Positions 36,001 through 63,134 of a stretch of DNA of 64,000 nt are shown here, piece by piece (the stretch's first letter is position 1; every line of letters begins with the position of its first letter). Location of the stretch: positions 78,612-142,611 of the forward strand of contig JAJDCD010000010.1 of the NCBI GenBank assembly GCA_029261035.1, written 5' to 3'. The notes under the pieces were generated by a model. The model was not told where the DNA came from, did no database searches, and saw only the letters and a program-made list of their open reading frames with translations. The translations under genes were made by a program, and so were the position numbers. The DNA is from Candidatus Omnitrophota bacterium. GTDB taxonomy: Bacteria > Omnitrophota > Omnitrophia > Omnitrophales > JACROU01.

Positions 36001-39000
36001 ATGCTTCCTTCAGGGTTTCCATCGACATCAAAGAATGTTCGGTTTGTTTGGAGATCTTTTAAGCCTGTGACACTCGTCAAACTATTATGTGTTAAATCTA
36101 CAAAGTCCGTCATTGGCTCTGTTGTAGAGAAAGCATCCACAAGAACAACATTGCCATCGTTGTCGGTAGCAAATTCACTGATCTGAGAAATTTTTCCATC
36201 TTCATCAATCGTGATACTTCCTGATGGATTTCCATCTACATCAAAGAATGTTCGGCTTTCTCTGTTTCCCTTTAAAGCATCAACACTCGCTGAAGAATTA
36301 TGAACATTGGCGTTATAATCCGTAAGAGGCTCAAGCGCTGCAAAACCATCGACAAAAAGAATATTCCCGTCTCCATCAGTGGTAAATTCACTGATCGCAC
36401 TAATTTTTCCATTCTCATCAATGGTGATACTTCCAACAGGGTTTCCATCACTGTCAAAAAAGGTTCGGCCTTCCTGTTGCCCCTTTAAGCCCGTAACGCT
36501 CGCCAAACTGCTATGAGTCGTTTCATTAAAATCAATTAAAGGTTCGGTTGCTGAAAAATTATCCACAAAGAGAATGTTTCCATCACTATCCGTAGCAAAT
36601 TCACTAATCGCACTAATTTTTCCATTCTCATCAATGGTAATACTTCCAACAGGGTTTCCATCGGAATCAAAAAAAGTTCTCCCTTCAACAGCCCCCTTCA
36701 ACACAGCAACACTTGCTGAAGAAACATGAACAGCTCCATCAAAATCCGTAAGAGGTTCAACCGCAGCATAATTATCTAAGAATAAAACAGTTCCATCATT
36801 GTCAGTTGTAAACTCACTAACACCACTAATCTTTCCATCTTCATCGATCGTAACACTGCCCTCAGGGTTTCCTTGCAAATTAAAGAAAGTTCGGCTTTCC
36901 AATCGATCTTTCAGAGCATTCACACTCGCAATGGAAGTATGTGTTCCGCTGACAAAGTCTTGAAAAGGTTCAAGTGCTGAAAAACCATCAACATAAAGAA
37001 CGTTTCCATCACTATCTGTAGTGAACTCACTGATATTCGTTATCTTGCCATTTTTATCAATTGAAATACTGCCAGAAGGATTTCCGTCACTATCAAAAAA
37101 GGTTCGATTTTCTTGAGCATCTTTCAATGCGGTAACACTGGCTAAATCGGTATGCACAAGTGTGTCGAAATCCACAAAAGGTTCTGTTGCTGAAAAACTA
37201 TCCACATACGAAATATTACCGTCGCTGTCGACCGTAAATTCACTAACGTTTGTAATCTTACCGCTTGCATCGATGACAATACTTCCAGAAGGGTTGCCGT
37301 CCCCATCAAAAAATGTTCGGCTTTCTTGTCGGTCTTTTAAACTTGTTACTGCCGACAATGCATTATGCACATTGGCATCAAAATCGGTTAAAGGTTCTGT
37401 TACTGAAAAGCTATCCACATAAAGAACATTTCCGTCACTATCCGTAGCAAACTCACTCACACCACTCATCTTGCCATTCTCATCAATAGAGACACTTCCG
37501 ACTGGGTTGCCGTCACTATTAAAGAATGTTCTCGTTTCTCTATCCCCCTTCAAACCAGCCACATTTGCTAATGAATTATGTAGATTGGCATCAAAAGTCG
37601 TTAAGGGCTCAACAGCTTGAAATCCATCGACAAAAAGAATGTTTCCATCACTATCTGTAGTAAATTCACTAAGACCACTGATCTCACCGTTCTCGTCAAT
37701 CGTGATACTTCCTGATGGGTTGCCGTCCGCATCAAAAAAGGTTCGGCTTTCTTGTCGGTCTTTTAAAAGTGTTACTGCAGATAAAGCATTGTGAACATTA
37801 GAGTCAAAATCCGTTAAAGGTTCAATAACAGAGAAGCTATCCACTAAGAGCACATCCCCATCACTATCCGTAGTAAATTCGCTCACACTACTGATTTTTC
37901 CATTCTCATCAACTGCAATACTACCTACCGGGTTACCGTCAGCGTCGAAAAAGGTTCTACTTGTTTGAGCCTCTTTTAAAGCCATAACACTATTTAAATC
38001 GGTATGAACGGCAGAATCAAATGCAATTAAAGGTTCCATCACTGAGAAACTATCAACGTAAAGAACATTCCCATCGGCATCCGTCATAAATTCACTGATA
38101 CCGCTGATGTTTCCATCTTCATTAATAGAAATACTTCCTTGAGGATTTCCATCGGCATCCAAAAAGGTTCTACTACTGAGTTTATCTTTCAAAGGAGCTA
38201 CACTTGGAGCACTGGCATGAACCGCCGCATTAAAAGAAGTAAGTGGAGTCGTTGCTGAAAAACTATCTACGGATAGAACACTTCCATTAGCGTCTGTGGT
38301 AAAGTCGCTAATAGATGAAATGTTTCCGTTTTCATCTATTCCGATACTGGATTGAGGATTTCCATCGACATCTAAAAAAGTTCTGCTTGTTTGAGCATCT
38401 TTCAGAGCTGCTACACTTGCTGCATCTGTATGAATACTTCCATCAAAAGTAGGCAACGGTTCCGTCACAGAATAAGCATCGACATAAAGAATATTTCCAT
38501 CGACATCCGTTGTAAATTCGCTAATACCACTGATCTTTCCATTCTCATCAACGGCAACACTGGCGGTTGGATTTCCATCACTATCCAGAAAGGTACGAGA
38601 GGTTTGCTTATCTTTTAAAGGTGTAATACTTGCTAAGCTTGTATGAATGCTTGCATCGAAATCGGTTAAAGGTTCGATTACTGAAAAACTATCCACATAC
38701 AATAAATTTCCTTGCGCATCGATTGCAAATTCACTCACACCACTCATCTTGCCGCTTTCGTTAATTGTAACGCTCGCTGCCGGATTTCCATCGGCATCTA
38801 AAATCGTTCGGGTCGTTTGACGATCTTTAAGAGCATCTACACTTGTTAAACTTTTATGAACACTAGAATCAAAATCTTGAAGGGGTTCCGTTACGGAAAA
38901 ACCATCAACATAAAGTACATTTCCGTCGGCATCCGTTGTAAACTCATTAATTCCAACTATTTTCCCTGCAGCATTCACAGAGATATTACCTGTTGGATTT

Positions 39001-42000
39001 CCGTTAAGATCCAAAAAGGTTCTTCCGGATAGCTGATCTTTAAAAACGTTTATACTCGCTAAATCCATATGTACGGCTGCATCAAATGCAGGCAACGGTT
39101 CTGTCACAGCGTAGGTTTCTACATAGAGAATATTTCCATCGGCATCCGTTGCAAATTCACTGATTCCACTTATCTTCCCATTATCATCAATGGTAATACT
39201 TCCTGTTGGGTTACCATCGGCATCTAAATAGGTTCGTGTCGTCTGACGATCCTTCAAGACGTTGACATTAAGCATGCTCGTATGCACTGCTACGTCAAAA
39301 ACCTGCAAGGGCTCTGTCACTGAGAAACCATCAACAAAAAGAACATTTCCATCGGCATCCGTCGTAAATTCACTTAACCCATCCACTTCTCCATTCTCAT
39401 TAATGGAAATGCTGCCAACGGGGTTTCCTTCCACATCCAAAAAAGTCCTGGAGGTTTGACGATCTTTTAAATTAGTTACACTGGCTAAGTTTGTATGAAT
39501 ATTCGTATCAAACACAGGCAATGGCTCTGTTACAGAAAAACTATCAATGTAAATTATGTTTCCATTTGCATCGGTTGCAAATTCACTGATCGCATTAATG
39601 CTTCCATTTTCATCTATCGAAATACTTCCAACAGGATTTCCTTGCGCATCCAATAGGGTACGGCTGGTTAATTTATCCTTAAGTGCATTAACGCTAGCAA
39701 CAGACTTATGAATATTGGAGTCGAAATCGGTTAGAGGTTCGATTACTGAAAAACTATCCACATAAAGCACATTTCCGTCTGCGTCCGTTGTAAACTCACT
39801 AATTCCCACAATTTGTCCTTGAGAATTTACAGAGATACTTCCTGATGGATTTCCGCTGCTGTCTAAAAAGGTTCTACTAATCAAATCTTCTTTAAACGCT
39901 TGAACACTATTTAAATCGATATGAACAACGCCGTCAAATAGTGGGAGTGGCTCTACAACAGAATAGGTTTGAATATAAAGAATATTTCCATTTGGATCTG
40001 TTTCGAATTCACTAATGCCGCTAATCTTCCCGTTTTCGTCAATTGTGATACTTCCGACAGGATTTCCATCCACATCTAAAATCGTTCGGGTCGTTTGTTT
40101 ATCTTTTAAGCCATTCACACTGGCTAAGTTACCATGAACAGCACTATCAAAATCTACTAACGGTTCCGTTACAGAATAGGAATCAATATAAAGAATATTT
40201 CCGTCGGCATCTGTCGCAAACTCACTAATTCCATTAATTTTTCCATTCTCGTCTATTGTGATGCTCCCTTCTGGATTTCCATCCACATCCAAAAAGGTTC
40301 GGCTGGTAAAACGATCCTTGAGAGGGGCTATATTGGTAACCGAATTATGTGTGTTCGCATTAAAGTCAGGCAAGGGCTCCATCACAGAAAAAGAATCTAC
40401 ACTCAATACATTCCCATTGGCATCTGTCGTAAATTCGCTGATCGCACTAATTTTTCCGTTTTCATCTATCGAAATACTCAGTTCTGGATTTCCATCCGCA
40501 TCTAAAAGAGTTCTACTTGTTAACTGATCTTTTAGAGCATTCACACTCGCTAAATCTTTATGAATCGAAGAATCAAAAGCGGTTAAAGGTTCGGTTACTG
40601 AAAAACTATCCACACTTAAAACATTGCCGTTTGCATCTACAGCAAACTCACTAATCCCTACAATTTCTCCTTGAGAATTTACTGATATACTTCCTGCAGG
40701 GTTTCCGTTCACATCCAAAAAGGTTCTGCTAGATAAATTTGATTTAAACGGAGCCACACTTGCTGAAGATGTATGGGTTAACGCATTAAAAGCAGGCGCC
40801 GGCTCTTGAACAGAGTAAGCTTCAATATAAAGAATATTTCCATTCGGATCTGTTTCAAATTCATTGATGGCAACTATATTTCCATTTTCATCAATCGTAA
40901 TACTTCCCTCTGGATTTCCATTACTATCTAGGTATGTACGCGTTGTCATACGATCTTTAAGAGCTGAAACACTGTTTAAAGAGGTGTGTGTATTTGTATC
41001 AAAATTTTGTAGCGGTTGTGTTACAGAAAAACTATCGATAAATGTAATATTCCCATTCACATCCGTAGTGAACTCACTGATTGCGCTGATTTTTCCATTT
41101 TCATCCACTGCAATGCTTCCAATAGGATTTCCACTCGCATCAAATAAAGTGCGGGCTGTCATCGACCCTTTTAGACCAGAAACACTTGTTAAGCTAGTGT
41201 GTACAGAAGAATCGAAATCGGTTAGAGGTTCTGTTGCTTCAAAGTTATCAACGTAGACAACATTCCCATTCGCATCCACAGCAAATTCGTTGATCGCAAC
41301 AATCTTCCCATTCGCATCTAAACTAATACTTCCTTCCGGATTTCCGTTTACATCCAACAAAGTACGGTTGGTTAAACTATTTTGAAGAGAGGCTACGCTT
41401 GCGAGTGAAATGTGAATATTTGAATCAAAAGCTTGAAGCGGCTCCGTAACAGAGAAGCTATCAACACTTAATATATTACCGTCCACATCCGTTTGAAATT
41501 GGTTAATCCCTACAATATTACCGCTCGCATCTAAATTAATACTGCCAACTGGATTTCCCTCAACATTCAAAAGTGTGCGGCTGGTAAGTTGATCTTTCAA
41601 ACCCAAAACGCTGGCTAAATCGGTATGGGTCGTTGCGTCAAAATCTTGAAAAGGTTGTATCAAAGAAAAAGAATCCACTTGGGTTACATTGCCATTAGCA
41701 TCCGTAGAAAATTGACTTAATCCTTCAATTTTTCCATTGGAGCTAATACTAACACTTCCTTGAGGATTTCCATCCACATCCAAATAAGTTCGACTCGTTA
41801 AGTTCCCTTTCAAACCTGAAACACTCGCCAAATCGGTATGCACCGCAGCATCAAACGCAGGGACAGGTGTTTGAACTTCATAATTATCTACACTAGAAAT
41901 ATTACCATTAGCATCTAAGTTAAACTCACTGATTCCAGAAATGTTTCCAGCCACATCAATCGAGATACTCCCCGTTGGGTTTCCATCCGCATTTAGAAAA

Positions 42001-45000
42001 GTTCTGCTTGTAAGTCGGTCTTTTAATGGATTTACGTCTGCTGAGGTTTGATGAATAGCTGCATCAAAGTCAACCAATGGAAGAAGAACGGAATAACTAT
42101 CCACTGTAACCACATTTCCATTGGAATCAACAGTGAAATCACTGATTGATTCTATCTTTCCATTAGAATCAATAGAAATACTCGATACAGGATTTCCATC
42201 CGCATTCAAGAAAGTGCGACTACTCAAACCTGTAGTCAAAGGAAGAACGCTAGCAAAATCCGCATGTATAGCTGCGTCATAACTTGTGAGAGGATCACTC
42301 ATATCATAACTATCCACATTGATTACATTGCCGTTCGCATCTAAGCTAAACTGACTTACTGAGCTGACCTTACCATTAACATTAATAGAGATATTCCCTA
42401 CAGGATTTCCATCGGCATTTAAGTAGGTGCGTGTTGTTAAATTATTTTTCAAAGCACTGACGCTAGAAATATTGATGTGCACTATAGAATTAAAATCTTG
42501 AAGAGGCTCTTGCATACTAAAACCATTAACACTAATCACATCTCCGTTAGCATTAAGAATAAACTCACTGATTCCAGATATTTTTCCATTAGAATCAATT
42601 GTGATGCTGCCCGTTGGGTTCCCATCCACATCTAAAAAGGTTCTGGATACAATGTCCGATTTTAAAGCAGAAACACTGGCTTGCGTTGTATGTACCGCGC
42701 TATCAAAAGCCGTTAATGGGTCGACCATAGAAAAGCTATCAACACTGATTACATTTCCATTCACATCAACCACAAATTCACTCACAGCACTAATATTATT
42801 GCTCGAATCAACCGTAATACTTCCCAATGGATTGCCGTTAACATCTAAAAAGGTTCTGGAGATCTGACGATCTTTCAATGCCGTAACACTCGTTAGATTT
42901 AATTGAGTGGCTGTATCAAAATCACTGAGTGGCTCCAACAGCGAAAAACCATCTACAGTAATAACATTACCGTTAGCATCTGTCATAAACTCACTAATCG
43001 CACTCACCTTACCATTCGAATCGATTGTAATACTTCCTTCTGGATTGCCATCCACATCCAAAAAGGTGCGCGTCTCTTGTGAACCTTTAAATGCATTCAC
43101 ACTCGCTAAATCAGAGTGTACATTCACATCAAAATCAGGAAGAGGTTCTGTCACTGAGAAAGAATCTACAGCAATAATATCCCCATTCACATTAAGAACA
43201 AATTCGCTGATACTGCTGATTTTTCCATTCGAATCAATCGTAATACTACCAACAGGATTGCCGTTAGCATCGAGTAAAGTACGAGAAGTTCTATTCAGCT
43301 TTAACGCATCTACACTGGTTAGAGAATTATGAACCGTTGAATCAAAGCTTTGCAGCGGCTCAACCATAGAAAAGCTATCAACACTCACTACATTTCCATT
43401 GGCATCCAATGCAAATTCGCTCACACCACTAATTGCCCCACCCGCATTGAGCGTTAGACTTCCAACAGGATTCCCATCCGCATCTAACAATGTGCGGTTC
43501 GTTAGTCGATCTTTAATTCCATTCACACTTGCAAAAGTCGTATGAACTCCTGCATCAAACGAAGTTAAAGGAGACACAACAGAAAAACTATCGACACTGA
43601 TAATATTTCCATTTCCATCAAGAACAAACTGACTAATACTTGTGATCTCTCCATTAGAATTGATTGAAATACTCCCTTCAGGATTTCCGTCGGCATTCAA
43701 GAAAGTGCGAGAAGTAATTTGATTTTTAAAAGAAGTAACACTTGCAGCGTCCACATGAACCGCTCCATCAAAAGTAGGTAGAGGCTCGGTAACAGAATAG
43801 GCATCCACACTTAATATATTGCCACTGGCATCTAAATTAAATTCACTGATGCCACTAATCTTTCCGCTAACATTCAAATTCAAACTCATGACAGGGTTTC
43901 CATCCGCATTTAAGAAGGTGCGTCCTGTAAGACGATCTTTAAGCGAATTCACACTTGCCAAATCCACATGAACGTTAGTGTCAAAATCAGGAAGAGGCTC
44001 AGTCACTGAAAAGCTATCGACACTCACAATATTGCCATCCACATCCAAGTTAAATTGGCTTAAATCACTGAGCTTTCCATTTTCATCAATCGTAATCGAA
44101 GCTTCTGGGCTCCCCCCTGCTCCAAGAAATGTTCGTGTGTTCAAACGATCAATCAATGGATTCACACTTGCTTCGGTGTTATGAACTAAAGGATCAAAAT
44201 CCGTCAAAGGCTCCTTAACCAAAAAGCTATCAACACTGCCAATACTGCCGCTGGCATCTAAGTTAAATCGAGTCACGTTACTGATCTTCCCATCCACATT
44301 AATGGTAATACTGGCCGCAGGATTTCCATCCACATCTAAAAGTGTCCGACTCGTTAATCGATCTTTAAACCCATTCACACTATTCAAATCTTGATGTAAT
44401 GCGGAGTCAAAATCAGGAAGAGGTTCTACAATAGAAAATGCATCCACAGCAACAATGTTTCCTTGAGGATCCAATACAAATTCCGAGATTGCCGTAATTT
44501 TTCCATTGGTGCCAATCGTAATACTTCCTTGAGGATTACCATTCGTATCTAATAAGGTTCGACTCGTAAACTGATCTTTCAATCCATTCACGCTGGCAAG
44601 ACTAACATGAATAACTGAATCAAAATCCGTTAAAGGCTCTAGTACAGAGAAACTATCGACACTCACAATGTTGCCACTCGCATCAATAAAAAATTCGCTG
44701 ATACCACTAATCTTGCCGCTCGCATCAATCGTAATACTGCCTACTGGGTTTCCATCACTATCTAAAAGAGTTCTAGAGGTTAAGTTTTGTTTTAAAGAAA
44801 TGACACTTGCTAAATTCGTATGAATAACAGAGTCGAAATCGCTGAGAGGTTCCACAAGTGAGAAAGAATCAACATAAAGAATATTGCCTTCCGCGTCTAA
44901 ACCAAACTCTGAAATACCTGTAATCTTTCCGTTCGAGTCCATACTAAAACTGCCCACAGCATCCCCGTCGGCATTAAATACGGTCCGTGTGCTCAAACGA

Positions 45001-48000
45001 TCTTTCAATGGATTTACAGAGCTAAGGCTTGCATGAACCGCTCCGTCAAAATCGCTGAAAGGCTCAGTTAAATCAAAACTATCTACATATAGAATCGTTC
45101 CATCTGCATCCACAGCAAATTCGCTTAACCCAGAAATTTTTCCATCCACATCAATTGTAATGCTACCTGCCGGATTTCCATCCGCATCAAAAAAAGTGCG
45201 ACTATTCTGTCGTTCTTTAAGAGGGTCGACACTAGCAACATCTACATGAATGACCCCATCAAAAGATTGAAGAGGCTCTGTCACTGAGAAGCTGTCCACA
45301 TAAAGAATCGTTCCATCCGCATCCACAGCAAATTCACTAATGGCCGTTATTTCACCACTAGTATTCAAGTTAATACTTCCTGCTGGATTTTGGTCCACAT
45401 CCAAAAAGGTACGTGTTAATTGCCTTTCTTTTAAAGACTGAATACTTGCTTTAGACGTATGAATAGATCCATCAAAATTTGTGAGAGGTTCTATAACTGA
45501 AAAACCATCCACAAGAATAATATTTCCATCCACATCCAAACCAAATTCACTCACAGCATCAATTTTTCCATCCACATTAATAGTGACACTCGCGCTTGGA
45601 TTTCCATCCACATCCAAATAAGTCCTGCTAGTTAAACGATCCTTTTGAGATGTAACGCTCGCAATACTTGTATGAAGCGCAGCATCAAAATCAATTAATG
45701 GCTCTACAACTGAAAAGCTATCGACAAAAATAACATTACCATTGGCATCGGTACCAAATTCGCTGATTCCAGAAATCTTTCCATCATCATTGATAGTAAT
45801 ACTACCCAATGGATTACCATTCAAATCTAAAATAGTTCGGTTTGTGATCTTATTTTTAAGAGATTGAACATTCGCCAAAGTGTTATGCGTTGTTGCGTTA
45901 TAAGCAACAGGAGGTTCTGTTGTTGAAAAAGAGTCAACATAAAGAATATTCCCTTGGCTGTCTGTCCTAAATTCGCTCACTGTAGCAATGTTACCGTCTT
46001 TGTTAATACTGATACTTCCCTCTGGATTTCCGTCTACATCAAGAAAGGTAACCGTTGTTTGTCTTTCTTTTATAGCGTCTACACTTGTCAAGTCCGTATG
46101 AACCGCTGAATCAAAGTTAGGAAGAGGTTCCTTAACTGAGAAAGAATTCACAACTAAGATATTTCCTTGGGCATCAATTTCAAACTCATTCACTCCAGAG
46201 ATGTTTCCATTATCATCAATAGCAAGACTGCCAATAGGGTTTCCGTCCGCATTAAAAAAAGTTCTTCCTGTCTGACTATCTTTTAAGTTATTGATTGCAG
46301 CAACAGTGCTATGTGTTACAGAATCGTAATCAGGCAATGGCTCTTGAACGGTAAAGGAATCAACGTAAAGAATACTGCCGTCTGTATCGGTTGCAATATC
46401 ATTAATGGCAGAAATCTTTCCATTCTCATCAATGCTGATATTTGCAACTGGATTTCCATTTGCATTCAAAAAGGTTCTAGTCGTTTGTCTGTCTTTAAGA
46501 CCATTAACAGATGCTGAATTCGTATGTATTGCAGGATCAAAAGTTTGAAGGGGTTGCGCTGTAATGAAAGCATCCACAGAAGTTACATTCCCTTGTGCAT
46601 CTGTGGTGAATTCATTAATGTCCGTAATTTCACCATTGGCATTAATGGTAATACTTCCTGTTGGGTTACTGTTCGCATCCAAAAAAGTTCTCTGGGTCAG
46701 ACGGTTTTTTAAAGGGGCCACATTTGCTAATTGGTTATGTACCGCAGGATCAAAATCAACTAAAGGTTCATTCACCGAATAAGCATCAACAGCGATTGGA
46801 TTTCCATTAGAATCTAATGTGAATTCACTCACTCCCGCAATCTTTCCGTCCGCATTCACATTAAGACTTCCTGCAGGATTTCCATTGCTATCCAAAAAGG
46901 TAAAAGATTGGATCTGGTCTTTTAGAGAAGCAACATTCGCTAAACTACTATGAACAGTTCCATCAAAATCAGGGGCTGGTTGATTTACAGAAAAAGATTG
47001 GACAAAAAGCACGTTTCCTTGTGCGTCCGTGGTAAATTCACTAATCGAAGAAATTTTTCCATTTTCATCGATAGAGATGTTCCCCACTGGGTTTCCATCT
47101 GAATTTAAAAAGGTTCGAGTCGATTGTCTTTGTTTTTGTGAAGCGACACTTGCTAGGCTCACATGAACTTGAACATCAAAATCTTGAAGAGGTTCATTAA
47201 GAACAAAGGCGTCAATGGAAATAATGTCTCCATCCACATTAAGGTTAAACTCATTAATACCTGTTATTTTTCCATTTGCATCCACAGAAATATTGCCAAC
47301 AGCGTTTCCATCGGCATTTAAAAAAGTTCTGCCATTAAAACTATCTTTAAAGACAGAGACACTTGCACGATCGGTATGAACAGCTGCATCAAAAGTAGGA
47401 AGAGGTGTTGTTACTGTAAAAGTGTCGACACTGACAATGTTCCCTTGTGCATCCGTCATAAATTCGCTGATACTTGCAATTTTTCCATCGACATCCACAC
47501 TGACACTTCCCGTTGGATTTCCATCCACGTCTAAAAAAGTTCTACTCGTTAATCTGTTTTTCAAAGGATCCAAAGCAGCACTATCTTTATGAATAGCCGC
47601 ATCAAAATCAACCAAAGGCTCGTTTACCGAGTAGGAGTCCACTGCCGTAACACTCCCTTGTGCGTCGGTGGTAAACTCACTAATTCCTGTTATCTTTCCA
47701 TCCGCATTCACTGTAATACTTGCACTTGCATTTCCATTACTATCCAGCAAAGTACGTGTTGTAATTTGATTTTTAAATGCACTGACACTTGCAAGGTCTG
47801 TATGAGTAGCGCTATCAAAATCAGGATTTGGTTCTATAGTGGAAAAAGACTGAACAAAAAGAATATTACCTTGTGGATCCGTAGTAAATTCACTGACACC
47901 ACTAATCTTTCCGCTCGCATCAATGGCAATACTTCCCACAGGGTTTCCATCTAAATTTAAAAATGTACGTGTTGTTTGTCTCTCTTTAAGAGAAGTTACG

Positions 48001-51000
48001 CTTGCAACGGTTGTGAAAAGTGCCGCATCAAAATCGGATAAGGGTTCTGTTACCGAAAAAGCATCCACATAAGTAATACTTCCTGAAGCATCGATACCAA
48101 ACTCATTAATCCCGCTCACCTTTCCATTTTCATCAATGCTCAAACTTCCCACAGGGTCTCCATCGGCGTTCAAGAAGGTTCGAGAAGTTCTTTTATCCTT
48201 AAGAGGCGTTAAGCTAGCAAGGTCTCCATGAATAGCTGCATCAAAGGCCGTTAGCGGAGTTTGTACCGAAAATGAATCCACACTGATAATATTTCCTTGT
48301 GCATCCGTCGTGAATTCACTAATCGCAGAAATATCGCCATTCTCATCAATAGTGATGCTTGCGATTGGATCCCCATCACTATCAAGCAATGTACGTGTCG
48401 TTAATCTATCTTTGAACGCCGAAACTGAAGACAAACTCTTGTGTAAGTTTGCATCAAAATCCGTTAAAGGTTCCGTTGCAGAAAAACTATCAACAGCAGT
48501 AATATTTCCTTGAGCATCTGTTTGAAATTCGGTAATCCCAGTAATTTTTCCAGCGGTGTTAACCGTTAAGCTTCCTACAGGGTTTCCATCAGAATCAAGA
48601 AACGTTCTTCCGGTTCGTTGATCTTTAAGAGCATCTACATTCGCAAGACTATTATGTGCCGCTGAATCAAAATCAGGTAATGGCTCTTGAACAGTAAAGC
48701 TTTCGACGAATAAAATAGTCCCGTCGGAGTCTGTTTCAAATTCAGAAATAGAAGCAAGTTTGCCGTTCTCATCAACCGTAATACTTCCCGAAGGGTTCCC
48801 TTCGCTATCCAAAAAGGTTCGAGAGGTCTGACGGTCTTTCAAGGGATTTAAACTAGCTAAACTTCCATACGTATTAGCATTAAAATCTTGAAGAGGTTCG
48901 GTAACAGAAAATGAATCTACATATAAAATATCTCCTTGAGCATCTGTAGTAAATTCACTAACCCCACTCACTTTTCCGTTCTCATCAATGGAAGCACTGC
49001 CTGTTGGATTTCCGTTGACATCAATATAGGTTCTAGAAGTTTGACGATCTTTAAATACAGAAACACTTGCCATAGAAGTAAAAGTTAACCCATTGAATAC
49101 AGGCGATGGTTGAGTGACCGTAAAAGAATCAATAGAGGTTATATCTCCATTTGCGTCTCGATTAAATTCAGTGATATCACTTATATTTCCACTCCCATCA
49201 ATAGCAAGACTGCCTAAAGGATTTCCATCTGTGTCTAAAAATGTTCGCGTGGTTAATTGCTGAGTCAAACCCAAGGCAACACCAAAATCTTGAAATGTTA
49301 CTGCATCAAAATCTTGAAGAGGCTCGATCATTAAATAATTATCTACTAATATAATGTTGCCATCTGCATCTGTTTGAAATTGACTAACGCCACTCACCTT
49401 ACCCGAAGCATTAATGGTAATGTTTCCAATAGGGTTTCCATTCGGATCTAAATAAGTGCGATTTGTTTGACGATCCCGCAGCGTCGTACTGCTAGCCAAT
49501 GTAGGGTAAAGAGCTCCGTCAAAAGTAGGTGCGGGTTGCGTTAATGAAAAAGCATCAATATTCACAACATTGCCATTCGCGTCTGTTGTAAATTCATTAA
49601 TTCCAGAAACTAATCCATTGGTATCGATAGCCACGTTACCAATAGGGTTTCCATTGCTATCTAAATAAGTCCGAGTCGTCAGCCTATCTTTAAGAGGTGA
49701 TAAACTAGCCAAATCCTTATGAACGGCTGAATCAAAATTAGGTTCAGGACTCACAATAGAATAAACATCAATCGCTGTGATATTGCCATTGACGTCTGTT
49801 ACAAACTCATTTATTCCACTCACTTTTCCATTGGCACCGACCGAAACATTAGCAATAGCTGTTCCGTTCACGTCCAATAAAGTCCGATTAAAAGAACTGT
49901 CTTTGAATCCTACTACGCTTGCAGGCGCTGTATGAATTCCAGCATCAAACAATGGGAGCTGTCTTCCCAATTGATTCACATCTTGATCTACAATCGCAAA
50001 GTTATCTACAGCAATAACATTCCCATTCGCATCTATCACAAACTCCGTAATACCTGAAATACGATCCGTCACATCAATAGAAATACTAGAAATCGCATTC
50101 CCTTGAGCGTTGACAAAGGTACGATTACTTAAAGTTCCTTGAAAAGATCCAATGCTCGCTAACGTCGTATGAACAGCTGGATCAAAATTAGGTAATTGGA
50201 CTCCCGGTTGATTTAAATCTTGATCCAAAACAGTGTAAACATCAATGGCAACCGTATTCCCATTGGCATCCGTCACAAACTGATTGATTCCAGCAATTTT
50301 TCCATTTCCATCCACAGACAAAGTGGCAACGGCATTTCCACTTCCGTCCAACAAAGTACGCGTCGTTACATTCCCTTGCACAATTCCAAAACTAGCCAAG
50401 TCAGTAAATGTTGTTGGATCATATTGAGGTAAATCTAATTGAGGCGTTGAAGGATCTTGGTCTACAATAGAAAGATTATCGACTGAAACCACATTTCCAT
50501 TGGCATCGGTTCCAAATCGAGAAGCCCCACTAATTTCTCCATTTTCATTAATGGTAAAACTAGCAGCCGCCGTTCCATCTGGATTAAAAAAAGTAAAGCC
50601 TTGAGGTTTGTCATTAGACACACTGTTAGGATCGTCAACATCCCCCACCACTTCAAAAACTTGTGTCGATGTCAAAATACCATCTGCATCATAAGCATAG
50701 TTGGTTACTTCATCAGGAATTACATCTTGAGGATCCGTACTTGTTGGATCATCTTTAAAAGTTACAATTTGTTTAATTCGATCATCCCGAAGTAAACCTT
50801 CTTCATAAATAATTTCTAATTGCTTAATCCCACTAGTATCTTCTTGAACAACTTTCTGCAAATAACCTGCAGCATCATAGGTATATCGATTCACAGAGCC
50901 ATCGTTAAATTCAATACGGTCAATCACAGGGGTTCCAAATTGAGGTAATTGGGTATAGAAAATGGTATTTTCTAAATTTCCGCTACCCTTCACCGTTGGA

Positions 51001-53395: not shown

Positions 53396-55441
53396 TTAAA
53401 TCACCCCCCTTAAAATTACGCTAGAAATATTTTTGATAGAAAAATGAATGTCCATTTTGGGCATCTCCCAAACGGATTGAAGAGAAAAAAAGAGAAAAAT
53501 TGAATGAATCATACATCTGATATAAGTATAACTGATGGAAAATAAACTGGATTGTGTCAAAAAAGAAAAAGAATGACTGGCGTCATTCCATGAGGTAGGT
53601 CGAACAATAGAAGAAAACAAATTAGAAGTTTCAACTATTGGCCCAGCCCGAACTTCAACCTCACTTAATTGCGGCAAAGCATAAAAGGTCCGGTCTTTAT
53701 CTAAAGAGAGCGATTCCTTTTCAGCCTTCAATGTTTCTAATAAAGATTTTTTCATTTCTATAAAATTGCTGGTTGCAGAAATAACGGCAAATAATAAATT
53801 TTGAACCCAACGAATCGGCTGAGGAAGTAAATAACCTATAGAACTTACAGAGTAAACCCACTGCTTAACCGTATTTCCTTCAGCATCATACTCAGCAGCA
53901 TACTCTGGTTGAGACAAACCTTTTTCTGAAGAATAAAAAGTTGATTCATAAACAGAAGAGTCCAAACGAATTCCCTTACGTGTATCTATCTGCATTAAGT
54001 CCCCATTAGGATTTAATGTGTAATCATCACGAAATTGCAATTCACGATGCTTGTAGCTTAAAGTATAACGAATTTGTTCTTCGTTGAATTTTCCTTTTAA
54101 AAAAGTGCTCTTGTTATCTGAATTATTCTCGGTATCCACACGCTTCAAAATACCGTTGGAATCATAATGAAATACTTCCTGCAAAATTTGTTTTCCAGAC
54201 TTCCCATCGAAGTGTTGTGAAGAAGAAGGTTTTCCATCGTTGAAAAAAGTTTTTTCTATCAAAGGTGCTTGTTGAGTATTCAGCCCATCATAAGTCTCAG
54301 ATCGCAACAAATTCCCATTCTGAGAATAATGAAATAAAGTAACTTGAGGAGACTGTTTTTGATCATAGTCTATTTGAAAAAGAGCTTTTTCACTTCCCAC
54401 ATTTCCTTCATAAAAAATTCTCTTAAATATAAACCCATTTTCAGAATTATCTTTTTGGTAAGCCATTTCTTCAATTGCGCCTTCTTCACCATAAACTAGA
54501 TTGATTACTGCTCTAAGAATCCCTTTATTACTGTACTTTAAGACTTTAACAGGTTGATCATTGTGATAATGCGTCAACTCCAACCTTACCCCATCCGCGC
54601 TCTTCTTCTCAGACTGCATCAACGATTGCGTTCTAGGATTGTAGTGATTCACAAGAACAGATCCGTCTAAGTTAGAAACGTAAACCTCTGCAGAATAGTT
54701 TTCTTGGGTATCTAAGTTCTCATTAAATGTTTTTGACATTTTAGGCGACTGCGTTTGCCCTTCAGATTCCAACACCTGAAATGTAATCTTCTGATTCTTA
54801 AAGTCTTTAACAATAACCGTTGTTTGGCGAGACTCCCCTGATCCGTAATGGTTAAATGTGGCTGTCTCTAACAACTCTCCCGACATCGTATTATAAATAT
54901 GATACGAAGCAAGCTCTCCATTTTCCAAATAAGCATAACTTCTTTTAACTCCTTGAGGATTTAAAAGACTAATCAACTGCTGTTCTTGATTGTATATTGA
55001 GGTGACACCCAAACCATCAGTAATAATGGTTGTTTCAACATTTCCATCTTTATCAAAAGTATAATTATAAAGAGTTAAATCGCCAACCCCATCTGAAGTA
55101 TAACGAATGCGCCCTGCCATATCTTTCTCAGTATAAAACCCAGTGACGATGCCAAAAGAATCTACTAGCTCTGTTACATTCCCTTGAGCATCAAATTTAA
55201 TTTTTGAATCGGTTGCATTTGTAGAAATAGTTTCGGAAGAAAGTTCTACTGGATTTAAAGTTTCATTTAGAATGAGAGGTGAAGACAAAGAAATGACCGG
55301 AGCAGGTTGCAATGCCGCTGGAATAAATGCATAACCTACAGAAACTTGCCCCAAAAATAAAGTGAAAGCAACAAATGTTGCGAGACTTCTTTTTGAAAAC
55401 AAACCGCAGTTGAGAAATGACTTTTTTGTTTTTATATTCAT
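53396..55441 (-). CDS. Secreted YD/RHS-like protein, 681 aa, first gene of the giant-protein operon
   Basis: The N-terminus has Lys3, Lys6, Lys7, Lys17 and Arg18, a hydrophobic core LATFVAFTLFLGQVSV and a clean signal-peptidase site GYA|FIP (after residue 38). The mature part is an irregular YD-like series, including KFDAQGNVTELVDSFG, YTFDKDGNVETTI, HYDSNGILKRVDTEN and YDAEGNTVKQW, similar in style to the flanks of the giant protein. The FDAQGNVTELVDSFGIVTGF segment parallels the 71-aa repeat. The last 50 or so residues are hydrophobic and Ser/Phe-rich, and their codons contain the giant gene's Shine-Dalgarno. Its TAA lies two bases before the giant ATG, implying translational coupling. No effector domain is recognised; a chaperone, cap or partner role is a guess. 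Confidence 0.85.
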   Translation of the reverse strand: MNIKTKKSFLNCGLFSKRSLATFVAFTLFLGQVSVGYAFIPAALQPAPVISLSSPLILNETLNPVELSSETISTNATDSKIKFDAQGNVTELVDSFGIVTGFYTEKDMAGRIRYTSDGVGDLTLYNYTFDKDGNVETTIITDGLGVTSIYNQEQQLISLLNPQGVKRSYAYLENGELASYHIYNTMSGELLETATFNHYGSGESRQTTVIVKDFKNQKITFQVLESEGQTQSPKMSKTFNENLDTQENYSAEVYVSNLDGSVLVNHYNPRTQSLMQSEKKSADGVRLELTHYHNDQPVKVLKYSNKGILRAVINLVYGEEGAIEEMAYQKDNSENGFIFKRIFYEGNVGSEKALFQIDYDQKQSPQVTLFHYSQNGNLLRSETYDGLNTQQAPLIEKTFFNDGKPSSSQHFDGKSGKQILQEVFHYDSNGILKRVDTENNSDNKSTFLKGKFNEEQIRYTLSYKHRELQFRDDYTLNPNGDLMQIDTRKGIRLDSSVYESTFYSSEKGLSQPEYAAEYDAEGNTVKQWVYSVSSIGYLLPQPIRWVQNLLFAVISATSNFIEMKKSLLETLKAEKESLSLDKDRTFYALPQLSEVEVRAGPIVETSNLFSSIVRPTSWNDASHSFSFLTQSSLFSISYTYIRCMIHSIFLFFSLQSVWEMPKMDIHFSIKNISSVILRGVI
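53400..53411 (-). promoter_or_regulatory. Strong Shine-Dalgarno of the giant gene
   Basis: On the minus strand the sequence is AAGGGGGGTGAT, then six bases, then ATG. It is close to the ideal AAGGAGGTGAT complement of the 16S 3' end. It lies inside the final codons of the upstream gene (…GVI stop), so terminating ribosomes can restart at the giant ORF. This fixes the start at 53393. Confidence 0.8.
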
Positions 55442-55499: not shown

Positions 55500-55528
55500 A
55501 ATATACTCGTGAGACCCTTGTTTGTCAA
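55500..55528 (-). promoter_or_regulatory. Sigma70-type promoter of the giant-protein operon
   Basis: On the minus strand there is a perfect -35 TTGACA (55523-55528), a 17-bp spacer and a -10 TATATT (55500-55505). Transcription should start near 55493, about 50 bases before the ATG at 55441. It is the only strong promoter seen upstream of the operon, so the giant mRNA would exceed 55 kb. Confidence 0.7.
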
Positions 55529-55671: not shown

Positions 55672-55701
55672 TTGTCAAATTGAACTTTGTTAAGCTATAA
55701 T
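55672..55701 (+). promoter_or_regulatory. Sigma70-type promoter of the 1369-aa gene
   Basis: The -35 TTGTCA (55672-55677), an 18-bp spacer and a perfect -10 TATAAT (55696-55701) place the start near 55708, about 35 bases before ATG 55743. No clear Shine-Dalgarno precedes that ATG, since the leader there is A/T only. Confidence 0.65.
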
Positions 55702-55742: not shown

Positions 55743-58700
55743 ATGTTTAAAAAACTAGCACAAAAAATCCATATTGGAGTTGCACTCTGCTTAGTGGTCT
55801 GCCTGAGCATCCCACCAGAGCTATATGCAATCGCCCCGGAATTAGCCTCACAAAACAGCTCTGCCCGGCAAGCAATTATCAACGAGCTTTCCCAAGGATC
55901 TCAACAAACTCCTGTAGGCTGGCTACACGAAGCGGGTATCATCCCTGACCATGACACTATTGCTGCTCACTTATTAGCTCAAGCCTTATTAGAAACAGAC
56001 ACACAAAGAAGAGCTCAACAGCTTCAAAACATCGAGAGAAGTACTCTGAATAGACTGGTTACCCGACTAGGCATTGATACCACTGCAAGCTCTGCAATCA
56101 TAGCAGCACTAGAACAACTCGAATTAGACCAACCCGATTCAATGGTAAACACAATGGAGATGCTATTCGATGCAAAAGAAGGAGTTTTAAATCAGCCCGA
56201 AGTCATTGCCGCCGCCTCATTAGGAGATGAAACCAACGATGTACAGCTAGAAAGAATTCTTGCTCAAAAAATAAAATTAGAAAAATATCAACACGGTCTC
56301 GAAAACTTAAAAAGAAGCCTAGAACAAATTCTTCAAGGCAAGAATCTAAAACAACGCTTTAGTCTTCGAACAACTCCTTGGAACACTTTCTTAAACCAAC
56401 TCAGCAGTCTCAATTTTGACTTAAATCAAGGTAAACACGTAAGTCCTCTAGTAGAAATCACGACAACCGCTTCTCTAGCAAAAGCCATAGCAGATGTTTA
56501 TATCGACACAGCTTCACAACAAAGAAGAGATGAGGAACAAATAAAAGCAGAGGCCAATCACGATAGAATAAAAGAATCACTAAAACAAATAGATGATTTC
56601 CTCAAAAAAAGCTCTGAATCCATTAGCGCCCTAAACCTTTCTGCCTGGAAAGTAGGATTTGCTTGGCCTATGATTAAAAGCTATCTTCTCCTTCGAAGAG
56701 CCAAATCTTATTTCCAAAGAAATCCAAACGCAAGAAAAGTCCTTTTCATAGGCTCTATGTTTGGACTAGCTCTTACCGTACTAACAATAGCTGTTGTCAG
56801 TGTAAAAGACGTTCGAACAGAAATTCAAAAAAGAGAAGAAAACAAAAGCACCCTTGAATCGATTCCAAAGATTACAGACTACATCAATCAGGTTCGGACT
56901 CGCTTTGGTTTACCTCCAATAAGTCCTGAAGAATCAGATGCCCTTAAAAGCAGAATTCAATTAGAGCGTAATGGATTTGCTTTGATCGATGCAGAAAGAA
57001 GTGCTTTACTTGAAAGCTATTTTAAGAATACCGTCTCTGACAAAACTTTTTTTGGGGAAGAATCCTTACCATTCCAAAACATTTCTTCTTTACAACTTTA
57101 CAGCTCTAGAATTACTCCTGAAACTCAAAATGCTCCATACGCTCCTTTTTTACAAGGGCAAAGAAAAATAAAGTTTAAAGGCTCCAGCGGACAAGAAAGA
57201 GAATTGCTCGGTTATATTGTTCGAGGTCTTATAGAAATGCGCTACCGTTTAGGCTTGCCTCGTTTTACTCTAAGAGAATTTGAAGAAACTTACAATCATA
57301 TTGATAGAAATAAAATACCTCCTATTCGCTATCGAGATTTTCTATTCAACCTTTCTACTCAAGAAGGGCTCGATCCTAAAAAAGATCTTCTTCCACCCAT
57401 TCAAGCTCGCTCTTTAGGTACGGAAGAAGAACAAAGCTTCAATGAACTAATCACTGCTTATGAACTGCTAGACAACACAACAAGATCCTTCTTCCGAATT
57501 AAAAAATTTAATTTCAATGAGATTTTAAGTTATATCAAACAGTTAAAAGCACAACCTCGAATCCCTTTCACTGGCAGAATCTTAAGCTATGTGTATGTTC
57601 CAAAAGCAACAAGCGAAGAATTGAAAACTACCTTTTGGGGAAGACGTCTTAACTCTATTTATGAGCCCCCAAAGAAAAAACTACGCGTCTCTTTCTGGGG
57701 AGTCCATGACTCCTGGGAAAGAGCCGTTCAAAAAACAGAAAATTTTGTAGAGCCTCTTTCTCAAATCGCAATTCAGGAACCTTTAGCCAGCCTTACCACC
57801 TTTGATCCAATGATGACGGCTATCCAAGAACTATTTCGATTTCAAATCGAAGAATCTATTATTGCGGATAAGTCGCTCGTTAAATCGGCACGTATGTTAT
57901 TAGAACGTTTTGAATTTAGTCCAGAACAAAAAGAAAAATTTAATTTTCTTCTTTCAGGAATCCCTATTCCGGATGGTAGCCTCATAAAAGATATTAAATT
58001 TTCAGCAAGTCAGAATAACGCTATCAAAGAATTTTTAGAAACTGTTGGCTTAAGTAAATATAAAGGCGCAGAAGAAAAAGAGAAAGTTCTTAAACAAAGA
58101 AAAGTCTTGGCCATTGCTTTATCACAAGAAGATGACGAACCTATCATTGTAAAAAAACCTATTTTCATGTCTCAAATACAAGCAAATACAGAGGCTTTAG
58201 AAAAAGCCGAAAAAGCTATCAAAGAATTTATAACAGAAGCAAAAGCAAAGAAAAAAGAAATTCAAGCTGCAATTTTCAAGAGCCATAAATTAGCTAATCT
58301 TAAAAGCGCCCTGTATGGAAGAAGAAGTATTGTTTATCGATTTTTCAGCCAATTAAAAAGTGAATTTGCTCAAGGTGGAATTCTGAAAAAAGGAGGTATG
58401 ATCACTCTTATTGGTGTTCCTATTTTATTTGTTGTTTTCGGGTTCACTTCTGCATTTATAGCAAAACGCAACAAAGACCAACAAGCTCTAGAGTTTCGAT
58501 TAGAAAGAGAAAAAACACAAAGAGAAGTTCAAGCCTATCTCGGACAGCTTCAAACGTATTATGGTAGTAACAATATGAGCAACAAAGATCGAGAAGCTGC
58601 CTATCAAAAATTTCTCAATGACAATAGCTCGGCTCCATTCCGCCAAGCAGAAGTAAATTCTATTTTAAATGGATATTTTTCTAATCAAATACCGGACAGC

Positions 58701-59852
58701 AGCTTCTTTGGAAGCAGTCCCCTATCTCCTCAAGCAACACCTTCACTCAATCTTAGAGGGGAAAATGTCAATCCCTATTCAGCCCCTTTATTACAAGCCT
58801 TAATCCAAAGAAGAGACCTTTCTTATACGGATAGTTCTGGAAGAACACATCGACTTAAAGGACACATCACCAATTTTATTTTAAGACTCTGGAACAAACA
58901 TTCTCCTCAACGCAGATTAAGTTTCCCTGAGTTTCAAGACATTCATGAAAAAGTAAGAACCGGTCAGTGGAAAATGTTTGAGTTAGATCAAAGAATTCGT
59001 CAGCAAGCACAAGGGAATAGTTTAGGAGACAGCTCCTCAGCCAATTCATTAGGAAGTAGAGATTTCTTTGTTAATACGGCTTTTGCCGCTATCGGAATCG
59101 CTGCGAACCATAGAAAGCTAGGGTCTTCATTAGAAAAGCAAGAAGATCTCTATAAAAATGCAACTGGAAGATTAAACTCTGCTAGCAAAGAAGAACGCGC
59201 CGAAATTCAAGACGCTTTGGCTTGGGCACTGGCTCAAAACAGTCTCGTTCGCCCTACTCCCGACACAACGGTTCACGACATTTTACCTTTAGAAACACTC
59301 ATCGAACCATCAGCACTTCAAAAAGCAAACGAAATTAAACTCACTGAAGTAGTACGAATTTTAGGAGCTCTTCCAAAAACAACGGTACTTCACATTGTTT
59401 CAGAAAAAGATTCTCTAATCAACTTACTGACACCAAACTCTCCTCTTTCAGAACAATTAAAATCAGACATAAGAGGACAACTATCGCGGGCCAACATTAG
59501 TGAAAAAACAGGGCCTTTTGCTTCAAACTCCAATCGCATTCTCCAACGCCTAAAACGCAAAGGAGCTTTGGTTGCCCATGATAAAGCAACCTTGCAAAAC
59601 CAAGTCTTTGACACCAACATCTTAGCCCTTTTCGACATCAAACAATTCGGTTACCTAGAAGGCTTAAGCACAGCCATCCTCAACATACTAGGCCGCCTAG
59701 CAACAGAAAGAGATCCTTCAGCCTACCTCTCTCAACTAGCAGAATATGGCATCCGAAAAGAAGGCCTACTCATCCTAGTAGACCTAGAACAATTCCTAAA
59801 CCAAATCGTCGCCGACTTCAAAGCAAAACGCAAAGTCGCCATAGCAGCATAA
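55743..59852 (+). CDS. Envelope protein of unknown function, 1369 aa, with internal duplication
   Basis: It begins with a signal peptide: basic start MFKKLAQKIH, core IGVALCLVVCLSI, likely cleavage ELYA|IAPEL after residue 29. Residues 30-330 are helical and charged. Hydrophobic segments lie at about 332-354 (KVLFIGSMFGLALTVLTIAV) and 884-907 (MITLIGVPILFVVFGFTSAF). Each is preceded by a coiled coil and basic residues and followed by related sequence: RSALLESYFKNTVSDKTFFG matches AEVNSILNGYFSNQIPDSSFFG-type sequence, and NAPYAPFLQG...FTLREFEETYNHI matches VNPYSAPLLQA...LSFPEFQDIHEKV. No known family or catalytic motif is recognised. Divergent orientation next to the giant operon suggests, but does not prove, a shared envelope function. 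The ATG lacks a Shine-Dalgarno. Confidence 0.85.
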   Translation: MFKKLAQKIHIGVALCLVVCLSIPPELYAIAPELASQNSSARQAIINELSQGSQQTPVGWLHEAGIIPDHDTIAAHLLAQALLETDTQRRAQQLQNIERSTLNRLVTRLGIDTTASSAIIAALEQLELDQPDSMVNTMEMLFDAKEGVLNQPEVIAAASLGDETNDVQLERILAQKIKLEKYQHGLENLKRSLEQILQGKNLKQRFSLRTTPWNTFLNQLSSLNFDLNQGKHVSPLVEITTTASLAKAIADVYIDTASQQRRDEEQIKAEANHDRIKESLKQIDDFLKKSSESISALNLSAWKVGFAWPMIKSYLLLRRAKSYFQRNPNARKVLFIGSMFGLALTVLTIAVVSVKDVRTEIQKREENKSTLESIPKITDYINQVRTRFGLPPISPEESDALKSRIQLERNGFALIDAERSALLESYFKNTVSDKTFFGEESLPFQNISSLQLYSSRITPETQNAPYAPFLQGQRKIKFKGSSGQERELLGYIVRGLIEMRYRLGLPRFTLREFEETYNHIDRNKIPPIRYRDFLFNLSTQEGLDPKKDLLPPIQARSLGTEEEQSFNELITAYELLDNTTRSFFRIKKFNFNEILSYIKQLKAQPRIPFTGRILSYVYVPKATSEELKTTFWGRRLNSIYEPPKKKLRVSFWGVHDSWERAVQKTENFVEPLSQIAIQEPLASLTTFDPMMTAIQELFRFQIEESIIADKSLVKSARMLLERFEFSPEQKEKFNFLLSGIPIPDGSLIKDIKFSASQNNAIKEFLETVGLSKYKGAEEKEKVLKQRKVLAIALSQEDDEPIIVKKPIFMSQIQANTEALEKAEKAIKEFITEAKAKKKEIQAAIFKSHKLANLKSALYGRRSIVYRFFSQLKSEFAQGGILKKGGMITLIGVPILFVVFGFTSAFIAKRNKDQQALEFRLEREKTQREVQAYLGQLQTYYGSNNMSNKDREAAYQKFLNDNSSAPFRQAEVNSILNGYFSNQIPDSSFFGSSPLSPQATPSLNLRGENVNPYSAPLLQALIQRRDLSYTDSSGRTHRLKGHITNFILRLWNKHSPQRRLSFPEFQDIHEKVRTGQWKMFELDQRIRQQAQGNSLGDSSSANSLGSRDFFVNTAFAAIGIAANHRKLGSSLEKQEDLYKNATGRLNSASKEERAEIQDALAWALAQNSLVRPTPDTTVHDILPLETLIEPSALQKANEIKLTEVVRILGALPKTTVLHIVSEKDSLINLLTPNSPLSEQLKSDIRGQLSRANISEKTGPFASNSNRILQRLKRKGALVAHDKATLQNQVFDTNILALFDIKQFGYLEGLSTAILNILGRLATERDPSAYLSQLAEYGIRKEGLLILVDLEQFLNQIVADFKAKRKVAIAA
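56535..57345 (+). repeat. Internal duplication, copy 1 (within the 1369-aa protein)
   Basis: Residues about 265-535 comprise a coiled coil, a basic helix (LLLRRAKSYFQRNPNARK), a hydrophobic segment and a following domain with ESYFKNTVSDKTFFG and NAPYAPFLQG. These match copy 2 in order and spacing, with low but collinear identity. Confidence 0.6.
58170..59010 (+). repeat. Internal duplication, copy 2 (within the 1369-aa protein)
   Basis: Residues about 815-1090 repeat the architecture of copy 1: charged coil (EKAEKAIKEFITEAKAKKKE), basic helix, hydrophobic segment, then NGYFSNQIPDSSFFG, NPYSAPLLQALIQRR and RRLSFPEFQDIHEKV. The offset from copy 1 is about 550 residues. Confidence 0.6.
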
Positions 59853-60148: not shown

Positions 60149-60559
60149 CTAATCAATTTTCTTCCGACTTTTATAATTATCATTAACCGAATGCCAATAC
60201 CCAATTTTCTTCTCACCCATATGCCAACAAAAACAAACCAAAAACTTATCCCGAACAGCAAAAAAATCAACATACCCCTGCTCAATATCTTTCACAATAC
60301 ACCCTTTTTCATTCACCTCAAGAATCTGATCCTCAAAAGAAAGGATCAACGACTCTAACTCTGCAGATTTCTCTACATACTCTTTTGACTCTGAAGACTC
60401 ATCGTCTTTCACTTTCTCCCCACTCAAAAGATCCAAAACTAAAAGCTCATCATGATGCTTTTGCATCAATTTTCTTTTTTCAATTAAATCTAAGATAAGC
60501 GGCTCTAATTCGGGAATCAAAGCATTCGCTTCTTCTAATGTAAAAATTCTAGGATTCAT
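60149..60559 (-). CDS. DUF2203 family protein, 136 aa
   Basis: The N-terminus MNPRIFTLEEANALIPELEP and the C-terminal VDFFAVRDKFLVCFCW plus GEKKIGYWH match the small DUF2203 family. That family is widespread in bacteria and has no established function. The length (136 aa) is normal for it. The middle is a charged helix (LIEKRKLMQKHHDELL). A Shine-Dalgarno AAGGGTG overlaps the TAA of the ATP-grasp-like gene, and the ATG follows that stop by nine bases, so the two are translated together. It is the last gene of the sucC-sucD operon as seen here. Confidence 0.85.
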   Translation of the reverse strand: MNPRIFTLEEANALIPELEPLILDLIEKRKLMQKHHDELLVLDLLSGEKVKDDESSESKEYVEKSAELESLILSFEDQILEVNEKGCIVKDIEQGYVDFFAVRDKFLVCFCWHMGEKKIGYWHSVNDNYKSRKKID

Positions 60560-60568
60560 ACGGCACCC

Positions 60569-61951: not shown

Positions 61952-61996
61952 TATGATCACCACCCATCGGTCTAGTTGCCCTAATTCAAGTTTATA

Positions 61997-62881: not shown

Positions 62882-62886
62882 GAGAA

Positions 62887-62894
62887 CTTCCTTT
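62887..62894 (-). promoter_or_regulatory. Shine-Dalgarno deciding the sucD GTG start
   Basis: On the minus strand AAAGGAAG is followed by five bases and then GTG at 62881. The spacing and the conserved SucD N-terminus favour this start over the ATG at 62944. Confidence 0.75.
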
Positions 62895-62980
62895 CGATAA
62901 TCGATTTCTAAATTTGAAATTTTAAAGTAAAAGCTAAAAACCATAATTGAAAAGTCAAAAGCATCTCCAAAATCTTCAAA

Positions 62981-63088: not shown

Positions 63089-63134
63089 TTTCAAAATTCT
63101 TTAATTTTGATCTATGGTTTTTACTTTTTATTTT

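Follow-up and report, generated by a model that had tools for sequence, protein, structure and literature searches.

The 64,000-nucleotide stretch of DNA analysed here (the window; part of contig JAJDCD010000010.1, assembly GCA_029261035.1, Candidatus Omnitrophota bacterium) contains an open reading frame (ORF), named D1369, whose predicted product raises a question of membrane topology. A putative signal peptide is followed by two hydrophobic segments, each preceding a copy of the same domain. If the signal peptide is cleaved and both segments cross the membrane, the two copies would lie on opposite sides, while basic residues preceding both segments were taken, in a sequence-only reading of the window, to argue for the same orientation. 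The analysis described below points, tentatively and with a little less than an even chance, to D1369 being a member of a set of large exported polyprotein-like proteins that would be cut at or near short junction motifs. The features of D1369 are the following:

55743..59852 (+): D1369 ORF, 1369 aa, stop codon included; no homologue found in the searches given below
55743..55832 (+): putative signal peptide, residues 1 to ∼30; hydropathy peak of 2.02 at residue 13
55833..56210 (+): N-terminal module, residues 31-156, between the signal peptide and the first junction motif
56211..56225 (+): junction motif AASLG, residues 157-161, from a motif scan
56226..57404 (+): membrane module 1, residues 162-554, flanked by junction motifs
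56739..56795 (+): hydrophobic segment 1, residues 333-351, from hydropathy
56868..57266 (+): repeated domain, copy 1, residues 376-508; E = 9e-14 to copy 2
57405..57419 (+): junction motif ARSLG, residues 555-559, separating membrane modules 1 and 2
57420..59012 (+): membrane module 2, residues 560-1090, flanked by junction motifs
58407..58463 (+): hydrophobic segment 2, residues 889-907, from hydropathy
58524..58934 (+): repeated domain, copy 2, residues 928-1064, from its alignment to copy 1
59013..59054 (+): junction motifs GNSLG (residues 1091-1095) and ANSLG (residues 1100-1104), from the motif scan
59055..59849 (+): C-terminal module, residues 1105-1369
59730..59849 (+): C-terminal element of 40 residues common to the class, ending in VAIAA-COOH, from the tail profile

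Hydropathy peaks above 1.6 were present in D1369 only at residues 13, 333 and 889. The first of them corresponds to the signal peptide, which was called from hydropathy and from reading the sequence, its cleavage site being without a program prediction. D1369 had been described as two related halves, each with a coiled coil, a basic helix, a hydrophobic segment and a similar following domain. Aligned with each other, the halves showed significant similarity (BLASTP, E = 9e-12; Smith-Waterman score of 155 vs 46.5 ± 7.0, maximum 85, in 300 shuffles), which involved one domain: residues 376-508 and 928-1064 aligned with a score of 140, compared to 32.4 ± 5.5 (maximum 55) in 1000 local shuffles. 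The parts ahead of the hydrophobic segments scored 37 vs 36.9, a value equalled in 442 of the 1000 local shuffles; the proposed similarity of the coiled coil and basic helix regions was therefore not found. Judged by sequence comparison, the halves share a layout, while homology is demonstrable only for the ∼135-aa domain behind each hydrophobic segment. The two motifs noted earlier in this domain hold approximately (SYFKNTVSDKTFFG vs GYFSNQIPDSSFFG, and NAPYAPFLQ vs NPYSAPLLQ).

Positive charges were counted as lysine plus arginine (K+R) in the 15 residues either side of each segment. Basic residues do predominate ahead of segment 1 (six before, four after), but not ahead of segment 2 (two before, five after). 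The topology puzzle holds if the ORF is read as one uncut chain; it is not a peculiarity of D1369, since comparable arrangements were found in two other proteins. One of 1381 aa (L056) has a signal peptide followed by two hydrophobic peaks and by PAS, HATPase and receiver domains (a HisKA match fell just under the cut-off). Another, of 2858 aa on contig C24, carries two hydrophobic segments in separate junction-delimited modules, with K+R values before and after of 4 vs 2 and 9 vs 3.

The four [AG]xSLG sites of D1369, at residues 157, 555, 1091 and 1100, part its modules; either membrane module has a single hydrophobic segment with the shared domain behind it. In the window's genome this motif occurred 47 times in the 25,399 aa of 14 large, Cys-poor proteins sharing the C-terminal element described below (the class, giants apart) and 16 times in the 160,534 aa of 454 others, a ratio of 18.6 (P = 8e-28); permuted motifs occurred only one to three times in the class proteins. 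Once four paralogues were removed, 28 sites in 19,329 aa still gave P = 5e-17, the enrichment being 15-19-fold overall. The two giant members, G1 and G2, have 10 sites in 37,473 aa. Between the last site and the protein end there were 169-303 aa in 13 of the 16 class proteins (21, 450 and 1060 aa in the others), which places the C-terminal element usually on a module of its own. A role of the junction as a DNA-level signal (an in-frame ribosome binding site) was rejected on account of codon variation between sites: the serine codon of [AG]xSLG was AGY in 42 cases and TCN in 15, and in R[SA]E[LVAS]R, the junction of relatives (see below), codon choice at R, S and L was likewise variable.

Signals of the type expected at an N-terminus were found inside these proteins. 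Internal hydrophobic segments began within 40 aa past a junction in 5 of 12 cases, compared to 6.5% expected (P = 6e-4). Among those right behind SLG, three have lipoprotein-type ends (ALSAC, TLVSC and LTSC) and one ends in VQAQ. In the contig C24 proteins of 1581, 1574 and 2585 aa (L062-L063, L072-L073), lipoprotein-type signals directly past SLG account for part of the small number of cysteines present.

Large Cys-poor frames were present in 10 of the 18 relatives sampled, with a clear junction-like motif in six; none was found in G003, G022, G004 and G024. In two genomes of the same family the motif was again [AG]xSLG (20 occurrences in large Cys-poor frames and 9 in the remaining ones, P = 1e-7, for one genome; 5 and 0, P = 0.001, for the other). 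The junction was of the type SELR in G008 and G021, and RSE[VA]R in G027 and G018. The joint pattern [RK][SA]E[VLAS]R was found 8 times in 4,686 aa of class frames and never in 14,257 aa of others in G027; the corresponding figures were 28 in 11,858 aa and 0 in 12,662 aa for G018, 15 in 4,362 aa and 0 in 751 aa for G008, and 8 in 6,191 aa and 1 in 18,068 aa for G021.

In some cases a native protein start lies right behind the junction. Within the long ORFs of G027, domains of CsrA, glutamate dehydrogenase and 2-hydroxyacid dehydrogenase were identified, along with a GAPDH-like match that stays under the cut-off but keeps SNASCTTNC. A search of 47 genomes for CsrA gave seven matches above the cut-off and two weak ones elsewhere, below it. 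In the window's family (three genomes) CsrA is a standalone protein in frames of 92-127 aa, while in G009, G038, G027 and G008 it is embedded in frames of 1057-4482 aa. For G027, G009 and G038 the junction R[SA]E[LVAS]R lies directly before the CsrA start, MLVL[SQ]R; in the fourth genome, G008, it precedes a derived copy lacking the methionine. The standalone CsrA of the window's family begins with MLVLSRK, like the embedded copies. Over all sites, methionine followed [RK][SA]E[VLAS]R in 6 of 71 cases (P = 0.001), one of these starts being MDDDSRLTRRDFLK. In L118 of G027 (5938-19998), L209, L210 and L212, R[SA]E[LVAS]R links modules of the CsrA, dehydrogenase, GAPDH-like and NUDIX-like types, the NUDIX label deriving from reading the sequence. 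At L107 of G021, RSELR is directly followed, within a long frame, by MDDDSRLTRRDFLKVVSLG, a start that carries TRRDFLK; this we take to be a Tat-type signal.

The second feature common to the class is its C-terminus. In a sample consisting of contig C26 and 13 stretches of the window's genome, 10 of the 11 proteins of at least 1200 aa ended in [AS]A (the eleventh, of 1211 aa, ends in KLVW), as did 3 of the other 173. These ten are Cys-poor and have signal-like N-termini, although the hydropathy rule misplaced two of them (1236 and 2064 aa). Since the pattern was noticed post hoc and then counted, a fresh 386-kb stretch was used as a test. In it, 6 of 8 Cys-poor proteins of at least 1000 aa ended in [AS]A, compared to 7 of 276 proteins below 1000 aa (P = 7e-8). 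Counting all proteins of at least 1000 aa the figure was 6 of 11, three proteins with more cysteine and many membrane segments lacking this end. With leave-one-out profiles of the last 100 aa, 8 of 16 members scored above all 159 non-members and three more trailed only one or two of them; D1369 itself (28.7 bits) outscored every non-member as well as each of the 320 internal controls.

Combining 14 tails of this genome with six of relatives in a 40-position profile gave 28 matches in the genome, 26 of them ending exactly at a stop codon and two elsewhere. The 26 comprised the 14 in the model, two paralogues seen earlier and 10 new proteins, all 10 with a signal-peptide-like N-terminus as judged from hydropathy and reading. 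D1369, itself within the model, was the best match (43.5 bits), and its tail is common to both neighbouring giants (16,198 and 21,275 aa). In relatives, counting only matches with a fetched locus, 11 of the 23 outside the model, from 10 genomes, ended exactly at the stop codon, the frames being 695-7190 aa long; the remaining 12 lay in frames of 33-631 aa, except for one in a frame of 11,659 aa. N-termini were signal-peptide-like in 7 of the 10 relatives' proteins examined; of the remaining three, one lies at a contig end and one beside a run of N. Further families of the order thus also have proteins that end in this tail. A candidate alignable family spanning the whole ∼230-aa C-terminal part was rejected, leave-one-out having mostly failed (one of 10 ranked first, D1369); the last ∼40-100 residues hold. 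Searches with known models returned none of 20 tails at E ≤ 1 in NCBIfam and, in Pfam, two families matching one tail each (E of 0.017 and 0.037). As a separate observation, a line resembling IQDAHxxYxAQxNI was seen by eye to recur soon past the signal peptide in class proteins of G000, G001, G011, G032 and G037; D1369 lacks it.

These observations suggest the following course. D1369 is translated as signal peptide, N-terminal module, membrane modules 1 and 2 and C-terminal module, and the chain would then come apart at the junctions or close to them, either through a protease or in the course of translation. The membrane modules would insert separately as signal-anchor proteins, each keeping its first part inside while exposing its domain outside. 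Both domain copies would thereby face the same side and the topology conflict would disappear. The C-terminal module with its -AA tail would probably be recognised by a handling machinery for export, processing or turnover. The duplicated outside domain would probably be an envelope-anchored partner or scaffold, which is the weakest step. A separated chain is favoured because the junctions lie between modules, the module starts resemble protein starts, and N-terminus-type signals sit internally. It is also possible, if somewhat doubtful, that the order makes true polyproteins, in which once-separate genes (for exported proteins, lipoproteins, a kinase, CsrA and metabolic enzymes) were fused and their products are cut at lineage-specific junctions co-evolving with a processing factor, the common C-terminal element marking the precursors.

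Several results weigh against separation. The hydrophobic segments of D1369 lie ∼170 and 330 residues past a junction and hence are not module-start signals, and segment 2, more basic behind than ahead, is ambiguous. For the 22 internal segments of 16 class proteins, K+R was higher before in 10, higher after in 10 and equal in two (7, 3 and 1, respectively, without the two giants). The tail was absent from two of the eight large Cys-poor proteins of the test stretch, and leave-one-out failed for the 1236-aa protein and four WD40-type paralogues. When L209, L210 and L211 of the CsrA search were left out (L212, with no methionine, being kept), the excess of methionine fell to 4 of 64 sites (P = 0.02). 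Two AlphaFold models had a mean pLDDT of 42.5 and 36.8, the first with long helices at low confidence. Finally, cysteine is depleted along entire chains, even in the kinase module, in agreement with export of the complete chain more than with separation inside the cell. In the sampled part of the window's genome, pooled cysteine content was 1.25% in 100 proteins without hydrophobic segments and 0.31% in 36 with a lone N-terminal one (P = 4.5e-9), these classes being crude and drawn from hydropathy alone. The idea that this depletion shows the whole chain to be outside was dropped, since L056, with its PAS, HATPase and receiver domains, is also depleted; because this kinase-type protein shares it, the depletion marks a class of proteins and not a side of the membrane.

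The junction may be a mere linker, and D1369 an uncut multidomain membrane protein. With the signal peptide cleaved, segment 1 would run from out to in and segment 2 from in to out, leaving copy 1 of the domain in the cytoplasm and copy 2 outside it; [AG]xSLG would be a favoured flexible linker and the tail a feature of the fold or an anchor. We consider this unlikely. Reuse of linkers within one genome is a simple idea, two segments past the signal peptide would place the C-terminal module outside, as expected for giants with the same tail, and the ambiguous charges of segment 2 and the lack of an overall bias at the internal class segments agree with it. The charges of segment 1, however, oppose the orientation needed, and the mature chain has no cysteine in the 1334 aa after residue 35 (both cysteines of D1369 sit inside the predicted signal peptide), far from the level of proteins without hydrophobic segments. 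Lipoprotein-type signals, a Tat-type start and a native CsrA methionine past junctions would also make little sense in an uncut chain.

Separation could also take place elsewhere: the whole chain might be exported via its C-terminal element and its modules freed outside or in another cell, as in MARTX-type proteins, with the hydrophobic segments inserting into a foreign or outer membrane. The signal peptides, the large size and the cysteine depletion of entire chains would suit such a payload, as would the cytosol-type enzyme modules of a relative (glutamate dehydrogenase, 2-hydroxyacid dehydrogenase, CsrA and the GAPDH-like match below the cut-off); predation or parasitism has been proposed for the phylum (PMC10066038). 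Nevertheless, we find the payload explanation improbable. MARTX cysteine protease domains and RTX repeats were absent from the Pfam matches listed for D1369, for 10,000 aa of G2 and for six other class proteins (25 of 33 families in the case of one of the six, and those scanned being a minority of the class), no delivery system was identified, and the presence of CsrA as a standalone protein in the window's family and embedded in others suggests ordinary housekeeping. A last alternative takes the -AA end as a degradation or quality-control tag, resembling that of tmRNA, which would remove chains or C-terminal modules left in the cell. Tail-reading proteases recognise -AA-type ends, and the tmRNA of this genome (L121; C24:327859-328266) has a predicted 27-residue tag whose end, ALPLAA, resembles the class tails VAIAA, VQIAA and VKVAA; the tag contains SLG but not [AG]xSLG. 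However, some 40 conserved residues with a spaced hydrophobic pattern exceed what a degron should need, and a constitutive degron on each giant would presumably be costly, making this explanation very improbable.

The surroundings of D1369 include the following features:

53396..55441 (−): divergent 681-aa gene, with a signal peptide and RHS-repeat similarity under the cut-offs
1..53393 (−): giant G2, the N-terminal 17,797 of 21,275 aa; its tail, VQIAA, lies beyond the window
contig C26, 18885-132004 (−): the adjacent giant genes G1 and G2, both carrying the common tail; window 3-53393 corresponds to the N-terminal part of G2

A 301-bp gap parts D1369 from this minus-strand block, formed by the 681-aa gene, G2 (21,275 aa) and G1 (16,198 aa). 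The 681-aa gene has neither tail nor junction motif. Internal hydropathy peaks number 13 in G1, several of them clustered, and one, weak, in G2; no Pfam match above the cut-off was found in the 10,000 aa of G2 scanned. A scan of the region for sigma-70-type promoters gave 20 sites, compared to 16.8 ± 4.4 in shuffles, which overall is chance level; two outward-facing promoter-like sites, each matching at 11 of 12 positions, lie in the intergenic region at 55500-55528 (−) and 55672-55701 (+). To the right of D1369 lie a 136-aa gene, a gene for a circularly permuted ATP-grasp protein and succinyl-CoA ligase genes. The ATP-grasp gene was matched in 36 of 39 genomes, including its own (in G002 only distantly), and is 58% identical in the same-family genome G001. 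The succinyl-CoA ligase and ATP-grasp genes (60149-63998) are kept together in relatives, often with other genes replacing the giant block. Large proteins adjoining the same ATP-grasp gene in G008, G003, G022 and G020 had no significant similarity to D1369.

It had been suggested that single-unit homologues of D1369 would lie near other giant genes. None was found; what D1369 and the giants have in common is the C-terminal tail, not the duplicated unit. Within the genome of the window, a profile of the unit recovered D1369 alone (a third match was put down to chance at E = 0.196) and nothing at E ≤ 0.01 in the other 383 of 384 genomes sampled from the phylum. D1369 as a whole had no homologue in its own genome at E ≤ 1 nor, at E ≤ 0.001, in the other 192 of 193 relatives, and a pattern scan of GTDB r220 yielded 48 candidate stretches, none of them confirmed. 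Three matches with E of 0.026-0.13 in 39 genomes (L003, L004 and L005) were also taken as chance; that of L003 lies within a GGDEF/EAL-like protein and that of L005 overlaps the end of a glycosyltransferase-like ORF with an internal stop, both labels coming from reading the sequence. The sole Pfam match of D1369, to TrbI, was below the cut-off.

Some features of the class recall known systems. MARTX multi-effector proteins are arrays of modules whose linkers are cut, freeing the modules, and viral and eukaryotic polyproteins are single chains in which modules with their own internal signal sequences are separated at defined junctions. The class of D1369 is like the former in its array of modules, but its junction motif is specific and lineage-dependent; it differs from the latter in being encoded on a bacterial chromosome, with a junction that varies among lineages and a separation that we infer. 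Many cargo proteins of type IX secretion, unrelated in other respects, are marked by a conserved C-terminal domain (PMC11285876), a likeness to the conserved end seen here. That domain is an immunoglobulin-like beta-sandwich, however, while the end of the D1369 class is helix-like, with spaced hydrophobic residues and -AA. A search of the genome for the type IX translocon SprA gave one match of 16.4 bits against a cut-off of 200, which lends no support to type IX secretion here, no control genome exceeding this cut-off either. Giant ORFs have been described in Omnitrophota (PMC10066038); they are poorly conserved, and for many of them membrane helices and large domains outside are predicted; G1 and G2, beside D1369, are of that kind and from the same phylum. 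The available part of that paper makes no mention of a shared C-terminal element, a junction motif or separable modules, and its main text does not contain the words signal peptide, C-terminal, linker, cleav*, fusion or multidomain. Among the papers listed on Omnitrophota giant proteins and bacterial polyproteins, mainly open access and without bioRxiv preprints, none was found to describe the tail or junction, as judged by titles and the beginnings of abstracts.

The giant and very large proteins of Omnitrophota were already known but unexplained, and the common tail and specific junction provide a handle on their recognition and perhaps on their dismantling. If separation is real, bacterial genomes would make use of polyproteins, a strategy more familiar in viruses and eukaryotes, the gene counts and domain annotations of such genomes would have to be revised, and topology predicted from the whole ORF would mislead. 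As a true polyprotein, D1369 would give a pair of membrane proteins in parallel orientation, both exposing the same domain outside.

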